64,000 nt of DNA from Agromyces protaetiae (lineage in GTDB: Bacteria > Actinomycetota > Actinomycetes > Actinomycetales > Microbacteriaceae). A program made the translations under genes and the position numbers. The stretch covers positions 1,116,001-1,180,000 of the forward strand of contig NZ_CP133018.1 of assembly GCF_030866785.1 (NCBI RefSeq), in the 5' to 3' direction. Position 1 is the stretch's first letter, and the number at the start of each line of letters is the position of its first letter. Below the pieces are notes generated by a model. It was not told the origin of the DNA. It was given only the letters and a program-made list of their open reading frames with translations, and did no database searches. This document shows, piece after piece, positions 1 to 25,867 of the stretch.

Positions 1-407
1 CGGCGGAAGACCACGACGATGTCGGGCACCTCGGGCAGATCCGCGAGGCTCGCGTATGCGGGCTCGCCGAGGATCTCGGTCGCGTTCGGGTTCACGAAGA
101 ACAGGCGGAAGTCGCTCGACTGCTGCAGGTACGTGCCCACGAAGTAGCTCGACCGGGTCGGGTTCGGCGACGCGCCGACGATCGCGACCGACTTCGCGGC
201 GCGCAGGATCGCGAGCCGCTGCTTCGCGTCGGGCCCGGCCCACGTGCGCTGGCTCTTCAGCAGCTTCGCGAGCGGCGAGCTCGCGGGCAGCGAGCACGAG
301 AGCCCGTTCACGAGCCTGATGGTCTCGGTCTCCTCCGAGGCCGTCGTGCCCGGGTCATCCGTCACCTGGTCCGTGAGGACCGCCGCCGAAGCATCCGTCG
401 TGGTCAT
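1..407 (-). CDS. CoA-binding domain protein, C-terminal part beyond window edge
   Basis: About 135 codons are visible, starting at an ATG whose last base overlaps the metY stop (ATGA, 404-407). After a variable, acidic N-terminus of about 40 residues comes a Rossmann-type start with VAIVGASPNPTRSSY and later FFVNPNATEILGEPAY, the pattern of the small CoA_binding_2 (YccU-like) family. Members are roughly 140-180 residues, so most of the gene is here. The overlap with metY implies translational coupling and one mRNA. The family binds CoA or a similar nucleotide, but its role is unknown; the link to sulfur amino acid synthesis is inferred only from the neighbour. Confidence 0.8.
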   Translation of the reverse strand, partial: MTTTDASAAVLTDQVTDDPGTTASEETETIRLVNGLSCSLPASSPLAKLLKSQRTWAGPDAKQRLAILRAAKSVAIVGASPNPTRSSYFVGTYLQQSSDFRLFFVNPNATEILGEPAYASLADLPEVPDIVVVFR

Positions 408-5391: not shown

Positions 5392-7101
5392 TCAGCCCCA
5401 GCTCGGCAGCCAGAAGTGCAGCCGCCGGAACGTCTCGTCGATCGGCATGGCCGACCAGATCGGGTAGAACCACGCCGAGATCGCGACCGCCCAGAGCAGG
5501 AACACGACAACGATCGCGATGCCGCGCTCACGGCGCCAGGCGGGGTCGCTCGGCCGCCCGAGGACGATCCCGATCACGATCGCGAGTCCGAGCACGAGAT
5601 ACGGCTGGAACACGATCGAGTAGAACTGGAACACCGTGCGGTCGAGGTAGAGCAGCCACGGCAGATAGCCTGCCGCGAGGCCGAGCAGCGTCAGCCCGAC
5701 GGCCCACTCCCGGTAGCGCACGAGACGGTAGACGAGATAGCCGGCCGCGACGGCCGCCGCCCACCAGATGAGCGGGTTGCCGATGCCCATGATGGACTCG
5801 ACGCAGCCGTCGCCGCAGCCGTCGACCTCGCGGTAGTACATGTTCGTCGGCCGGATCATGAACAGCCAGGTCAGCGGGTTCGATTGCCAGGGGTGGTCGC
5901 CGTGCACCCCGAGATGGAACGAGTAGGCCGACTGGTGGTAGTGCCAGAGGCTCTGCAGCCAGGTCGGCACCCATGCGAGCGCCCCGGTCGCGGCGTTGCC
6001 GGGCTGCTCGGCCCAGTGCCGGTCGTAGCCGCCGTCGGTCACGAGCCAGCCGGTCCACGATGCGAGGTACACGACCGCGGCGACGGGCACGAACAACAGG
6101 AACGTGACCGGCCCCTGCTTCAGCACCGCGCCCGTGGCCCAGAACGACACCCCGGCCCGGCGGCGCGCGAGCGCATCGACGATCACGAGGTACACGCCGA
6201 ACGCGGCGAGGAAGTACAGCCCCGACCATTTGACGGCCGTCGCGGCGCCGAACGCGGCACCCGCGGCGACCACCCACGGCCGTGCCCAGAGCGCGGGACC
6301 GTATGCGGGCGCGCCGTCTGGCGACCGCCCGCCGGCGAGCCGGCGTTCGAGCAGGGCGCGGCTGCGATCGCGGTCGAGGACGACGAACCACACGCCGATG
6401 AGGCACAGCAGCATGAGCCAGGTGTCGAGCAGCGCCACTCGCGACATGACGATCGCATTGCCGTCGATCGCGAGCAGCAGACCCGCGATGACGGCGGCGA
6501 CGGTCGTCCCGGTGAACCGCCGGGCGAGGAGCGTGACGATGAGCACGGCCACGGTCCCGGCGAGGGCGGTGGAGGCGCGCCACCAGAAGGCGTCGCCCGC
6601 GCCGAACGCGGCCATGCCGAGCCCGAGCAACCACTTGCCGAGCGGCGGGTGCACGACATAGCTCGGCGCCTCGTTGAAGATGCCGGTGTCGCCCGCCGCG
6701 AACTGCTCGTCGGCGTCGTCGGGCCAGGTCGTCTCGTAGCCGTGCTGCCACAGCGTCCAGGCGTCCTTGACGTAGTACGTCTCGTCGAACACGAGCTGCT
6801 GCGGGTGCCCGAGATTCCAGAACCGCAGCACGGCCGCGATGAGCGTCATGACGATCGGCGCACCCCAGTACCAGAGCGCGCGTCGCCGCGGATCGGCGAG
6901 CACGCGCGCCCACCAGGCGTCGAGTCGCGTGCCACGCGGGCCGGATGCCTCGGGCTGGCCGGATGCCTCGGGCTGGCCGGATGCCTCGGGCTGGCCGGAT
7001 GCCTCGGGCTGGCCGGATGCTTCGACCGGGCCGGATGCCTCTGGCGACGGCCCGGCAGCGGGACCCGGCACGCGCGCCTCGGCGGCCGGATCTGCGTTCA
7101 T
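5392..7101 (-). CDS. pmt: Protein O-mannosyltransferase (Pmt)
   Basis: 569 residues, a polytopic membrane enzyme that moves mannose from polyprenyl-phosphate-mannose to Ser/Thr of exported proteins during Sec export. The first loop has the catalytic Asp-Glu in LVFDETYYVKDAW, next to WNLGHP, both standard for bacterial Pmt, then about 10 hydrophobic helices and a GT-C-type C-terminus. The N-terminal 55 residues hold an (E/Q)ASGQP repeat (six 18-bp units). ATG 7101 is preferred to GTG 7110 because a TAGGGT box ends 7 nt upstream. Divergent from rsmI, a gene pair commonly conserved in actinobacteria. Confidence 0.93.
   Translation of the reverse strand: MNADPAAEARVPGPAAGPSPEASGPVEASGQPEASGQPEASGQPEASGQPEASGPRGTRLDAWWARVLADPRRRALWYWGAPIVMTLIAAVLRFWNLGHPQQLVFDETYYVKDAWTLWQHGYETTWPDDADEQFAAGDTGIFNEAPSYVVHPPLGKWLLGLGMAAFGAGDAFWWRASTALAGTVAVLIVTLLARRFTGTTVAAVIAGLLLAIDGNAIVMSRVALLDTWLMLLCLIGVWFVVLDRDRSRALLERRLAGGRSPDGAPAYGPALWARPWVVAAGAAFGAATAVKWSGLYFLAAFGVYLVIVDALARRRAGVSFWATGAVLKQGPVTFLLFVPVAAVVYLASWTGWLVTDGGYDRHWAEQPGNAATGALAWVPTWLQSLWHYHQSAYSFHLGVHGDHPWQSNPLTWLFMIRPTNMYYREVDGCGDGCVESIMGIGNPLIWWAAAVAAGYLVYRLVRYREWAVGLTLLGLAAGYLPWLLYLDRTVFQFYSIVFQPYLVLGLAIVIGIVLGRPSDPAWRRERGIAIVVVFLLWAVAISAWFYPIWSAMPIDETFRRLHFWLPSWG
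6941..7048. repeat. Six tandem 18-bp units inside pmt
   Basis: CCGGATGCCTCGGGCTGG is repeated exactly at 6941, 6959, 6977 and 6995, followed by two diverged units to 7048. Each unit is six codons and encodes QPEASG in the cytosolic N-terminus of Pmt. Identical copies in a tandem array are prone to length change by slippage. Confidence 0.95.
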
Positions 7102-18989: not shown

Positions 18990-19055
18990 CCCGCCCCGCC
19001 CCGCCCGCCCCGCCCGCCCCGCCCGGCCCCGCCCCGCCCCGCCCGCCCGCCCTCC
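18990..19055 (+). repeat. C-rich low-complexity tract (CCCGCC units)
   Basis: Directly after the metI stop, 66 bp of nearly pure CCCGCC/CCCCG runs with G only as a spacer. With the G-rich tract at 19127-19205 it brackets an AT-richer inverted repeat. The complementary strand could form G-quadruplexes. Confidence 0.85.
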
Positions 19056-19057
19056 GT

Positions 19058-19126
19058 CGAGTGATGACGAAACGGCAAGAACGAGGGCCCATTCCGGCAT
19101 CATTCGGGCCGTTTCGTTAACACTCG
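19058..19126. terminator. Large inverted repeat between convergent metI and marR
   Basis: Arms CGAGTGATGACGAAACGG (19058-19075) and 19109-19126 are reverse complements except for three central bases; the 33-bp interior is AT-richer than the surroundings. Placed between convergent genes, it can act as a bidirectional terminator. The conserved arm could also be a repeated intergenic palindrome. Confidence 0.6.
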
Positions 19127-19205
19127 AGCGGGGGACGGGCGGGGACGGGCGGGGACGGACCGGGGGACCGGCGGGGGACGGACCGGGGGACGGCGGGGAG
19201 GCGAG
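19127..19205 (+). repeat. G-rich low-complexity tract with G-quadruplex potential
   Basis: About 80 bp of GGGGGAC, GGGCGGGGAC and GGACCGGGGGACC units, more than four runs of three or more G in a row with short loops. It abuts the 3' end of the marR gene (stop at 19208). Confidence 0.85.
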
Positions 19206-22496: not shown

Positions 22497-24197
22497 ATGG
22501 CGATCAGCACGGACCGACCCTGGCTCGCGAGCTACGCGGAGGGCGTGCCCACCGACATCGAGCCGCCCACCGGCTCGTTGTACGACCTGATCCGCGAGAG
22601 CGTCGAGCAGTATCCCGACCACGTCGCGCTCGAGTTCTTCGGCCGCACGACGACGTATGCCGAGCTCGGCGCCGAGATCGACCGCGTGGCCGAGGGGCTG
22701 CGGATCCTCGGCGTGCAGCCCGGCGACCCGGTCGCGATCGTGCTGCCGAACTGCCCGCAGCACATCGTCGCGTTCTACGCGGTGCTCCGGCTCGGCGCGA
22801 TCGTCGTCGAGCACAACCCGCTCTACACGCCCCGCGAGCTCCGGCACCAGTTCGAGGACCACGGCGCCCGGGTCGTCATCGCCTGGGAAAAGGTGGTCGC
22901 GACGATCCAGGACTTCCCGGCGGATGTCTCGGTGCAGTCCATCGTCTCGGTCGACGTGACCCGGGCGATGCCGTTCGCGACGCGACTCGCGCTGAGGCTG
23001 CCCGTCGCGAAGGCGCGCGAGTCGCGCGCGGCGCTCACGACGAGTGTGCGTGGCACGACCGAGTGGCGGCAGCTCACCGGATCCGAACCCGTCGACGCGC
23101 ACATCGCCCGCCCCGGGGCATCCGATGTGGCCCTGATCCAGTACACGAGCGGCACGACCGGTTCACCGAAGGGCGCCACCCTGACGCACGCGAACCTGCT
23201 CTCGAACGCCGCGCAGGCCCGCGCCTGGGTGCCGCAGGTGCCGCGCGGCAGCGCGGTCGTCTATGCCGTGCTGCCCATGTTCCATGCGTACGGGCTCACG
23301 CTGTGTCTCACGTTCGCCATGAGCATGGGCGGCCGGCTCGTGCTGTTCCCGAAGTTCGACCCCGAGCTCGTGCTCAAGGTCGTGAAGAAGCATCCGGCGA
23401 CCTTTCTGCCGGCGGTGCCGCCCATCTACGACCGGCTCACGAAAGCCGCCGCGGCCGAGGGGGTGTCGCTCGAGGGCATCGAGATCGCGATCTCGGGTGC
23501 CATGCCGCTGTCGACCGCGGTCGTCGAGCCGTGGGAGCAGGCTACGGGCGGCGTGCTCGTCGAGGGCTACGGGCTCTCGGAGTGCTCACCCGTGCTGATG
23601 GCGAACCCGGTCGCGCCGAACCGCCGCATCGGCACGGTCGGGCTGCCGCTGCCGTCGACCGAGGCGCGCGTGGTCGACCCCGAGAACCCGACTGACGATG
23701 TCGCGCGCGGCGCCGAGGGCGAACTCGTCGTGCGCGGCCCGCAGGTGTTCTCGGGGTACTGGAAGAAGCCCGAGGAGACCGAGGCGGTGTTCGTCGCGGA
23801 CCCGGGCGGGGGAGCGCCGTGGTTCCGCACGGGCGACATCGTGTCGATCGACGCCGACGGATTCGTGCGCATCGTCGACCGCATCAAGGAGCTCATCATC
23901 ACGGGCGGCTTCAACGTCGCGCCGAGCGAGGTCGAGGAGGCCGTGCGGTCGCACCCCGACGTCGAGGACGTCGCGGTCGTGGGTCTGCCCGACGAGCACT
24001 CGGGCGAACAGGTCGTCGCGGTCGTCGTCCTCCGTGAGGGGGCGACGCTCGATGACGCCGGGATCCGCGCGCACGCGCGCGACCAGCTCACCGCGTACAA
24101 GGTGCCGAAGCGCGTCGTGCAGGTCGACGAGCTCCCGCGCTCCCTCATCGGCAAGGTGCTGCGCCGCGAGGTGCGCACCGGGCTGCTGAACGGGTGA
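22497..24197 (+). CDS. Long-chain fatty-acid-CoA ligase
   Basis: 566 residues of the AMP-forming (ANL) superfamily. P-loop YTSGTTGSPKGATLTH near 214, EGYGLSECSPV near 355, WFRTGDIVSIDADGF near 440, and the C-terminal GKVLRREV with its catalytic Lys near 557. It activates fatty acids to acyl-CoA via acyl-AMP; the FadD type is likely, though chain length cannot be told. Its stop overlaps the GTG of the next gene (GTGA). Confidence 0.9.
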   Translation: MAISTDRPWLASYAEGVPTDIEPPTGSLYDLIRESVEQYPDHVALEFFGRTTTYAELGAEIDRVAEGLRILGVQPGDPVAIVLPNCPQHIVAFYAVLRLGAIVVEHNPLYTPRELRHQFEDHGARVVIAWEKVVATIQDFPADVSVQSIVSVDVTRAMPFATRLALRLPVAKARESRAALTTSVRGTTEWRQLTGSEPVDAHIARPGASDVALIQYTSGTTGSPKGATLTHANLLSNAAQARAWVPQVPRGSAVVYAVLPMFHAYGLTLCLTFAMSMGGRLVLFPKFDPELVLKVVKKHPATFLPAVPPIYDRLTKAAAAEGVSLEGIEIAISGAMPLSTAVVEPWEQATGGVLVEGYGLSECSPVLMANPVAPNRRIGTVGLPLPSTEARVVDPENPTDDVARGAEGELVVRGPQVFSGYWKKPEETEAVFVADPGGGAPWFRTGDIVSIDADGFVRIVDRIKELIITGGFNVAPSEVEEAVRSHPDVEDVAVVGLPDEHSGEQVVAVVVLREGATLDDAGIRAHARDQLTAYKVPKRVVQVDELPRSLIGKVLRREVRTGLLNG

Positions 24198-24739
24198 ACA
24201 TGGGGTTCCTGTCGGCGGAGTCGGCCGCCGCGCTCGCGCGGCTCGTCGAGTTGCAGAGTGGGGCGGATGGCTCGCGTGAGCGCGTGCCGGATGGGCCAGC
24301 GGATGCCTCGTCGGCGCGGGCGGCGGATGCCTCGCCGCTCGACCGGCTCCGAGGCATCCGTGATCTCGTGACCGCGTTGGAGGCCGACCCGGCCGCACTC
24401 GACGCGGTGCGCGAGGCGGTCGACGCCGGCGTGGGCTGGGACGAGGTCGCCGACGCCGCCGGCCTCAGCGCCTCGGCCGCGAAGTACCGTTGGGCGGGCG
24501 ACGACACGGCGATCGCCGAACGCCAGGAGGCGAGCCGCCGCCGCAAGCGCGACCGCCCGTCGAGCCGCCCCACCGATCTGCCGGGGCTCTCGGTCGCCGA
24601 GGCGGCGAAGCAGCTCGGCATCACGCCGCAGGCCGTCTACCAGCGTGTCACGCGCGGCCAGCTCGAGGCCCGCACCGTCGAACTTCCCGACGGCCGCTCC
24701 TACAAGCGCGTCTTCCCCGACGCGCCGTCGGCCGAGTAG
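24194..24739 (+). CDS. Predicted DNA-binding protein with two HTH segments
   Basis: 181 residues, unrecognised. Two helix-turn-helix-like stretches are visible: VGWDEVADAAGLSASAAKYRWAG at about 79-101 and a MerR/excisionase-like LSVAEAAKQLGITPQAVYQRVTRGQLEARTV at about 137-167. The segment between them is Arg-rich, and residues 20-50 contain three copies of the recurring CGGATGCCTC-type decamer, in an Ala/Asp/Ser linker. It overlaps the ligase stop by 4 bp (GTG 24194; ATG 24200 is possible). Could be a regulator of the upstream gene; not proven. Confidence 0.65.
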   Translation: MNMGFLSAESAAALARLVELQSGADGSRERVPDGPADASSARAADASPLDRLRGIRDLVTALEADPAALDAVREAVDAGVGWDEVADAAGLSASAAKYRWAGDDTAIAERQEASRRRKRDRPSSRPTDLPGLSVAEAAKQLGITPQAVYQRVTRGQLEARTVELPDGRSYKRVFPDAPSAE

Positions 24740-24789
24740 CGACCGCCCCCGAGGTCGTTCCTGTCTCGTGGCCCGCCACGTCCGGTTGC

Positions 24790-25337
24790 ATTCCTTGCTC
24801 AGGAAGCGGGCACGGGTCGTCGGCGTGTCGTGCCGCGGCGCGCCGCAGGGTGTCGCGTTTTTCCTGAGCAAGCGAGGGGCGTCGCACTGCGTTCGCCCTG
24901 CCAGCCCCGAAGGCCGCGAGCTCCGTCGCCGGGGCGGGCACCCTGCCGGGGCCGCGGTGTCGGCGCGGGGCATCCGCTCGGCGCGGCCGCTCTCACCGCT
25001 GTCCGTCGCCTGCCGTGATCATTCCTTGCTCAGGAAGCGGGCACGGGTCGTCGGCGTGTCGTGCCGCGGCACGCCGCAGGGTGTCGCGTTTTTCCTGAGC
25101 AAGCGAGGGGCGTCGCACTGCGTTCGCCCTGCCAGCCCCGAAGACCGCGAGCTCCGTCGCCGGGGCGGGCACCCTGCCGGGGCCGCGGTGTCGGCGCGGG
25201 GCATCCGCTCGGCGCGGCCGCTCTCACCGCTGTCCGCCGCCTGCCGTGCTCATTCCTTGCTCAGGAAGCGGGCACGGGTCGTCGGCGTGTCGTGCCCCGG
25301 CACGCCGCAGGGTGTCGCGTTTTTCCTGAGCAAGCAC
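24790..25337. repeat. 2.4 copies of a 231-bp tandem repeat with nested palindromes
   Basis: Units begin at 24790, 25021 and 25252 (exactly 231 bp apart, near-identical); the third stops after about 86 bp. Each begins with inverted arms CTTGCTCAGGAA ... TTCCTGAGCAAG (24794-24805 with 24861-24872 in copy 1), enclosing a second palindrome, CGTGCCGCGGCACG in perfect form in copy 2. All six frames lack convincing protein sequence, so I treat it as non-coding. The third copy ends at the close of the hairpin, marking the hairpin as a separable module. Confidence 0.92.
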
Positions 25338-25490
25338 GGGGGAGTGGGCGCGGGCGGCGCGCGGCGCGGGCGGCGCGGGGGAGTGGGCGCGGGCGGCGCG
25401 CGGCGCGGACGGAGCGGGGGGAGTGGGCGCGGACGGAGCGGGGGAGTGGGCGCGGGCGGCGCGCGGCGCGGGCGGCGCGAGCTGGCCGCA
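25338..25490. repeat. G-rich minisatellite
   Basis: Immediately after the 231-bp repeats: at least four irregular units beginning GGGGGAGTGGGCGCGG and continuing with GGCGCGCGGCGCGG or GACGGAGC runs. Together with the repeats this makes 24740-25513 gene-free. Runs of G give G-quadruplex potential on the plus strand. Confidence 0.85.
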
Positions 25491-25513
25491 GTTCGAGGAG
25501 TGGCGCGAACGAA

Positions 25514-25867
25514 TCAGGCGTTGCGCTGGTCGGGCATCGGCAGGGGCTCGAGGGGGACGGCCGGGATCATGCCGAGGTTGGCGAGCAACCGGTCGTCGCC
25601 GGCGGACTGGACGGCGAAGCAGAGCCAGCCGGCGCCGCCGGGGCCGAACAGGTCGAACGTGACGCGCGAACCCGTCGCACTGGCGTCGTAGCGGGTGACG
25701 GTCAGGGCGCAGGCCCGGCTCGCCGCCGAGTGCGCGACGCTCGCGAGCGAGAGCACCAGCGGGAGCACGAGCGCGCACAGCGCGACGAGCACGACGATCC
25801 GGAGCATCCGTTGCGCGCGTGCGCCGCGGACCGGCCGGTCGTCGTGCTCGTCGGCGGCGTCGGTCAT
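25514..25867 (-). CDS. Small membrane-anchored or secreted protein, unknown
   Basis: 117 residues. A charged cytosolic N-terminus of about 20, one long hydrophobic segment at about 21-46 (VLVALCALVLPLVLSLASV), then a short outer domain with two Cys (in RACALTVTRYD and GWLCFAVQS) and a YDASATGSRVTFDLFGPGG stretch. No family recognised. It is on the same strand as, and 30 bp downstream of, gnd, so it may be co-transcribed. Its stop borders the minisatellite. Confidence 0.6.
   Translation of the reverse strand: MTDAADEHDDRPVRGARAQRMLRIVVLVALCALVLPLVLSLASVAHSAASRACALTVTRYDASATGSRVTFDLFGPGGAGWLCFAVQSAGDDRLLANLGMIPAVPLEPLPMPDQRNA

Follow-up and report, generated by a model that had tools for sequence, protein, structure and literature searches.

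A convergent intergenic gap in the chromosome of Agromyces protaetiae holds a tandem array with nested palindromes, and the question it raises is whether this is a local duplication or one instance of a unit that the genome has multiplied. The window analysed here, a stretch of 64,000 nucleotides (NZ_CP133018.1, positions 1,116,001 to 1,180,000), had been described from its letters alone as containing near-identical 231-bp units, each with arms around an inner palindrome, and a partial third copy that keeps just this hairpin module. We refer to that description as the sequence-only reading; it left a structured RNA, a MITE-like mobile unit, and an array of recombination or protein-binding sites as candidate explanations.

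An 85-bp palindrome within a 231-bp tandem array

The description itself stands. Tandem Repeats Finder places the repeat at 24789-25335 with a period of 231, 2.4 copies, 98% matches and a score of 1059; the array consists of two 231-bp units, 99% identical to one another, and one extra element. The third copy aligns to unit positions 1-91 only, which is the palindrome, and the arms CTTGCTCAGGAA/TTCCTGAGCAAG are found in copies 1, 2 and 3 (Table 1). When the 231-bp unit was used to query its own genome (4.18 Mb, single contig, G000:C1), 38 matches were scored beyond the three local copies, from 40 scored among 262 first-look candidates and with some rows representing two strands of one site. 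Because 37 of these 38 matches span only query positions 1-101, the remaining one being a 24-bp match, the palindrome is dispersed and the 231-bp period is local; the true unit is an 85-bp palindrome.

Table 1 Features of the array and its immediate surroundings in the window
Feature	Position	Strand	Comment
85-bp palindromic element, copy 1, form AA	24791..24875		Arms, boxes, fixed spacing; edges from doublet identity
85-bp palindromic element, copy 2, form AA	25022..25106		Arms, boxes, fixed spacing
85-bp palindromic element, copy 3, form AA ('half copy')	25253..25337		Arms, boxes, fixed spacing
Copy 1 left outer arm TTGCTCAGGAA, TTCC just before	24795..24805	+	
Copy 1 right outer arm TTCCTGAGCAA, start 66 bp past left-arm start	24861..24871	+	
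Copy 1 left inner box CGGCGTGTCG, A position, element 27-36	24821..24830	+	
Copy 1 right inner box CGGCGCGCCG, degenerate, element 42-51	24836..24845	+	Copies 2, 3: CGGCACGCCG
Inter-element spacer 1, 146 bp, outside the dispersed element	24876..25021		Elsewhere in the genome, nothing past query position 101 except one 24-bp match
Inter-element spacer 2, 146 bp, duplicate of spacer 1	25107..25252		
Upstream flanking gene, 181-aa ORF, ending 51 bp before element 1	24194..24739	+	
Downstream flanking gene, 117-aa ORF, convergent with the upstream gene	25514..25867	-	

Other repeats occur in the window as well. A GC-rich tandem repeat (25337-25479; period 39, 3.6 copies, 82% matches) lies right after element 3 and before the downstream gene, and short tandem repeats are found at 6939-7045 and 18990-19199 (18-bp unit, 5.9 copies; CCCGC and GCGGGGGACGG-type arrays). 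A Guanidine-III riboswitch (RF01763, 46.8 bits) is located at 2881-2946 on the + strand.

The dispersed element has a fixed geometry. The pattern TTGCTCAGGAA-N55-TTCCTGAGCAA with at most 3 mismatches occurs at 71 sites in the genome as compared with none for the reversed pattern, and when the gap between exact arms was left free at 40-70, all 46 matches had an outer-arm gap of exactly 55 bp. Further analyses used 72 elements in 44 groups (22 single, 18 double, 2 triple and 2 quadruple), drawn from the stretches taken plus the window. Of the 71 genome-wide sites with no more than 3 arm mismatches, this set includes 66, approximately five being left out. Each half-site comprises an arm, whose consensus over positions -3 to 11 is TTCCTTGCTCAGGAA, and a single inner box. 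In form A the box reads CGGCGTGTCG and occupies 27-36; in form B its complement, CGACACGCCG, occupies 20-29. The A and B positions are mirror images about base 28 (base 50 in the other half). Across all elements the mirror forms of the box occupy positions 20-36 and 42-58. With each half given to the nearer form, the counts are 30 AA, 16 BB, 15 BA and 11 AB, while the spacers are near random and positions beyond arm and box carry little information (n=72). In the 26 AB and BA copies the outer arms are kept and the inner boxes are direct repeats that cannot pair with each other; therefore, the boxes are not two sides of one stem, and a simpler account would have a protein recognize the box at a fixed position from either of its sides. 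The strict spacing together with randomized spacers suggests that wrongly spaced copies are not kept or not copied.

Duplicated unit, placement and species-specific arms

Comparison within the 18 doublets shows a duplicated unit with sharp edges. Identity is approximately 0.85 within positions -3..81 and approximately 0.4 outside, although the outermost letters are conserved family-wide, so that the edge of the duplicated unit is exact only to within the arms. Spacer identity averages 0.85 over 28 adjacent pairs compared with 0.40 between loci and 0.31 when shuffled, and in 17 of the 18 doublets the two elements are clearly closer in sequence when compared directly than when one is inverted, the remaining pair being undecided. 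Most doublets thus look as if nothing but the element had been duplicated; several also have one similar flank, and doublets could alternatively stem from gene conversion between two insertions. Repeats of 2-9 bp around the 22 single copies gave no convincing target-site duplication, the best of many offsets reaching 6/22 (2 bp) and 3/22 (3 bp). The element is absent from all four orthologous gaps that could be aligned in congeners (three with G240, one with G335), which are too diverged to reveal a junction. At a fifth orthologous gap, approximately 1.9 kb is present in G240.

The elements are nearly confined to intergenic DNA, with 42 of 44 groups cleanly between genes and the other two overlapping an ORF predicted by our own gene calling. 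These 42 gaps comprise 17 convergent, 21 same-strand and 4 divergent ones. The background consisted of 184 gaps of at least 60 bp from the window plus 400 kb of two congeners. Relative to it, the groups are over-represented in convergent gaps (17/42 versus 14.7%, p 4e-5; length-weighted 21%, p 0.004) and under-represented in divergent ones (4/42 versus 30%, p 0.001; length-weighted 23%, p 0.026). Along the chromosome, the region 1.50-2.85 Mb is poor in groups (4/44, as extreme in 2/300 random sets). The densest 500-kb stretch contains 15 groups (equally high in 6/1000 random sets) and is only partly centred on the nuclease gene described below; within 250 kb of that gene lie 10 of the 42 other groups, where 5.0 are expected (p 0.024). 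A dense cluster of 12 of the 44 groups surrounds the gene within G000:C1:2867681-3139402.

Dispersal, which the sequence-only reading had proposed to look for in related genomes, was found at home in more than 70 copies, but the exact-arm pattern was absent from all 59 other Agromyces genomes. Allowing 3 mismatches in the outer arms across 298 other Microbacteriaceae genomes yielded one site in each of two genomes, which is the control level (the reversed pattern gave single sites in 5 genomes), and none was found in viral contigs. The outer-arm pattern also matches two stretches in unrelated genome contigs. What congeners do share is the pair of inner boxes at equal spacing, found 27 times in the own genome and up to 10 times in congeners, where it stands between different arms, compared with 0 to 3 for the reversed control. 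At 26 sites selected by boxes only (20 stretches, six congener genomes), 24 have at least 8/11 complementary arm bases at the element geometry, with a mean of 9.27/11 at the exact geometry; 12 slides from -6 to +6 gave means of 1.7-3.9, and one site in all reached 8. Similarly, a general AA-form pattern is found in 18 of 60 Agromyces genomes and the reversed control in 0/60.

In an arm alignment of 14 genomes (13 Agromyces and one of another genus), 9 of 11 outer pairs have changed on both sides, with 38 covarying cells compared with 9.9 when shuffled and G-U in 2 cells only; 11 of the 14 rows came from a scan demanding 8/11 arm pairs, and the box-only test is thus the cleaner one. Covariation of this sort, with few G-U pairs, points more to a double-stranded dyad than to an RNA stem.

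A linked winged-helix nuclease and its relatives

A candidate enzyme for these elements is a 315-aa protein encoded approximately 1.7 Mb from the window (G000:C1:2898763-2899710), in which an AbiEi-like winged helix is followed by a Vsr/EDxHD-like nuclease. Its structure model has a mean pLDDT of 90 and matches Vsr-like folds with a middling score. E213, D240, D252, H257 and D266 are invariant in 25 sequences of the family and may represent the residues of the EDxHD motif. The protein scores under the Pfam cut-offs, while five of five paralogues scanned exceed that for DUF559 and none that for MTES_1575. PADLOC returned weak AbiEi matches, along with weak homing-endonuclease and PDC-S37 matches for one paralogue; neither NCBIfam nor a PDB sequence search with the protein's profile gave a match. 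All homologues listed with an organism name come from Agromyces, and the protein of Agromyces aerolatus is 82% identical.

Orthologues of this gene, one strong orthologue per genome, are adjoined by the element at 13 of 16 loci, at distances of approximately 35-330 bp and often with sites on both sides. The same scan found the element at 0/13 loci of distant paralogues and in none of 400 kb of two congeners, with 1 false match in 2.3 Mb of shuffled sequence. At least two AA-form elements are present in 12 of the 16 genomes with an orthologue as compared with 3 of the 44 without (Fisher p 4.6e-7). These three genomes (G309, G321 and G345) carry 2-3 AA-form elements and have no orthologue at E<=1e-20, which may reflect a lost gene, an assembly gap (G309 has approximately 840 contigs) or another enzyme. 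Furthermore, among 11 orthologues with usable arms, the difference between arms tracks the difference between proteins (r 0.54; 0/5000 permutations), a correlation that common descent alone could yield. Since the N-terminal 100 residues track arm difference best (r 0.59 versus 0.37 for the nuclease part), the winged helix may add specificity.

The wider nuclease family is present in 208 of 299 Microbacteriaceae genomes (64/85 genera) and, at class level, in 41 of 394 genomes (20/137 genera), 22 of the 41 lying outside the Microbacteriaceae. Loci of distant Agromyces paralogues have flanking inverted repeats of their own, with the core CAGGA...TCCTG at 11/13 loci and spacings between cores of 41, 49, 72, 74 and 112-113 bp. 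This core is found at 32 of 57 Microbacteriaceae loci versus 2 matches in a 400-kb control, and with stricter flanks it is the best of 30 permutations (23 loci versus 6 for the next), while it is rare among class-level loci (2/27, both within the Microbacteriaceae). A CAGGA-type inverted repeat with perfect 10-base arms was absent from 400 kb (20 stretches) of two congeners that lack the orthologue (G335 and G240).

We also applied a motif-free test that requires the two flanks of a gene to share one 12-base arm at equal spacing, within 600 bp. It was passed at 21 of 84 loci and at 0/520 random placements. Among 2970 mismatched flank pairs 15 passed, 14 of these having CAGG- or box-like letters in common. 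The passing loci comprise 3/16 orthologues, 5/13 Agromyces paralogues, 7/28 loci from the family search and 6/27 from the class search; these counts are floors, as the strict test misses many element-bearing loci, the orthologues' own 3/16 included. With 1260-bp flanks, 7 of 27 class loci pass (control 0/140), including 3 of the 11 outside the Microbacteriaceae, from two taxonomic families. Elements that share the arm offset and the boxes also occur in 4 other Microbacteriaceae genera, at 5 loci in all, two of which are weak. At a looser threshold, a match on both sides was obtained at 4 of 6 loci (the second nuclease gene of the A. protaetiae genome and three of five other paralogues; control 4/240). 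The second AbiEi/DUF559 nuclease gene (L236:2030-3085; G000:C1:1896529-1897584) has a different matched repeat of the GTGCGAGTCGTC type on both sides, and the paralogues L238 and L240 in G079 and G333 have matched flanking repeats of their own, CGAAAACAGGA and GGTTTGTCGGA, all at this looser threshold.

Competing explanations and known systems

We consider it probable, from comparison of sequences, that the array consists of three neighbouring copies of a REPIN-like, non-autonomous palindrome family served by the winged-helix/Vsr-like nuclease. The elements could instead be operators, bound by the AbiEi-like protein to repress its own gene along with a regulon, with no mobility involved. Its AbiEi-like N-terminus, the elements approximately 35-330 bp from its gene and a fixed spacing that suits a bound dimer would all fit, but promoter gaps are avoided (4/42 divergent versus 17/42 convergent), sites often flank the gene on both sides, and such a regulon would leave the approximately 85-bp duplication in doublets and the differences in arms between species unexplained, which makes it unlikely. 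Nor does service to the host, as bidirectional transcription ends or in chromosome organization with the nuclease as a passenger or domesticated helper, agree with the whole of the evidence: it would explain the enrichment in convergent gaps, the sparse region at 1.50-2.85 Mb (4/44), the almost total conservation of spacing and the terminator-like matches in the window copies (6 versus 0.4 in shuffles), but the T run that follows the stem in these copies is not conserved across the family. Moreover, because the own arms are absent from 59 congeners and the element from four aligned orthologous gaps, the neighbouring genes do not need it, and we hold a role of this kind to be distinctly unlikely.

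Among the explanations offered by the sequence-only reading, the MITE-like mobile unit came closest, in that the element is scattered through the genome, lies almost exclusively between genes and is sharply bounded where duplicated, although no convincing target-site duplication is seen. Neither the dispersed family nor the species-specific arms nor the flanked nuclease gene were visible to that reading in the window itself. A MITE proper, that is, a non-autonomous derivative of an ordinary DDE insertion sequence, is nonetheless very improbable despite the short terminal inverted repeats of dispersed intergenic copies, as the 22 single copies show no target-site duplication, the gene that neighbours the elements in many species encodes another fold, and arms and boxes are conserved at fixed distance rather than decaying. 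A protein-binding or recombination site array gained support from the fixed geometry and from between-species covariation of the arms in which G-U pairs are nearly absent. The evidence disfavours a structured non-coding RNA to the point that we regard it as extremely improbable: four elements form better folds than their shuffled versions (z -3.0 to -8.2) and the arms do covary, but 26 of 72 copies have inner boxes unable to pair, the arms contain only 2 G-U cells, all Rfam matches across 24740-25513 fall below the gathering score, and a simple scan that covers actinobacterial promoters in part found no promoter-like site. As for a neutral local duplication with no wider meaning, 99% identical units and a spacer unique to the locus would be in keeping with it, but the 71 sites of exact geometry leave it practically no probability. 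Copies elsewhere and arm covariation, whose lack, together with a lack of transcription, the sequence-only reading would have taken to indicate such a duplication, both exist; it is refuted for the 85-bp element and may apply to the 231-bp period alone.

Intergenic palindromic repeats are common in bacteria, and their well-described enzyme partner is the HUH-type RAYT. A RAYT partner was rejected here, as the genome has 0 matches to the Y1 HUH transposase (PF01797) in a search that matched 5 of 14 known genomes as a control. In the accounts given in PMC3116915, PMC8049555 and PMC8266576, REPIN-RAYT (TnpA-REP) systems consist of short intergenic palindromes with two inverted halves that form doublets and tandem clusters, alongside a single-copy RAYT gene with adjoining clusters that is inherited vertically in most congeners. 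The Agromyces elements likewise have two inverted halves, are intergenic (42/44 groups), form doublets and clusters, and adjoin a cognate single-copy gene (13/16 loci) that is vertically inherited in most congeners. The enzyme, in contrast, has an unrelated fold, the arms covary as double-stranded dyads at fixed distance whereas REPs are folded single-stranded hairpins, and the half-site carries the consensus TTCCTTGCTCAGGAA and a box in place of a conserved REP tag such as GTAG.

EDxHD homing endonucleases, such as the Vsr-like I-Bth0305I, act on a long dimeric target, as set out in PMC3943268, and would resemble the Agromyces system in fold and in such a target. The Agromyces gene, however, lies between ordinary chromosomal genes, its elements are dispersed in many copies, and whole palindromes adjoin it, unlike the two halves of one target. 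The AbiE type IV toxin-antitoxin system differs in that the AbiEi-like domain is fused to a nuclease domain in the Agromyces protein. The C-terminal domain of the nuclease family is like PF18741 REase_MTES_1575 and PF04480 DUF559, with our own protein below their cut-offs; the available portion of PMC3710099 describes MTES_1575 as an REase domain of the Vsr fold that occurs in fusion with HEPN and wHTH, and mentions no repeats.

Returning to the REPIN-like family served by the nuclease, the elements are dispersed at fixed geometry with species-specific covarying arms, adjoin the nuclease gene at most orthologue loci, are duplicated as a unit with sharp edges and are absent at four aligned orthologous gaps; the partnership itself is suggested by this association and covariation. 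The 315-aa protein would bind and cut the element, the winged helix reading part of it, and cutting would drive copying. Each element would be a two-fold symmetric double-stranded DNA site, with an outer arm and one box at fixed distance in each half, and the nuclease would place one of two subunits on each half. Once the nuclease had broken or nicked the DNA there, repair or replication could copy the 85-bp unit, mostly nearby in direct orientation and occasionally into new intergenic gaps, while the 231-bp period may be a later step caused by unequal exchange between two elements.

We propose, at odds slightly better than even, that this represents a second, independently evolved bacterial kind of repeat-plus-enzyme system, in which winged-helix/EDxHD nucleases, many with clade-specific flanking palindromes able to multiply genome-wide, would have arms and winged helix co-evolving into a private code in each lineage. 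The kind is rated new because enzyme, DNA form and geometry differ from those of REPIN-RAYT even though the behaviour is alike; the mechanism is a proposal. Nothing in the open-access literature surveyed, as judged from titles and the opening lines of abstracts, relevantly links inverted repeats or palindromes to DUF559 or Vsr, or Microbacteriaceae to REP. If the proposal is true, palindrome-enzyme systems would have arisen more than once in bacteria, and a testable role would open up for many proteins whose annotation is 'DUF559' or 'AbiEi antitoxin domain'. Naturally paired arm and protein sequences would then provide a code from which to learn how a winged-helix nuclease chooses its DNA.
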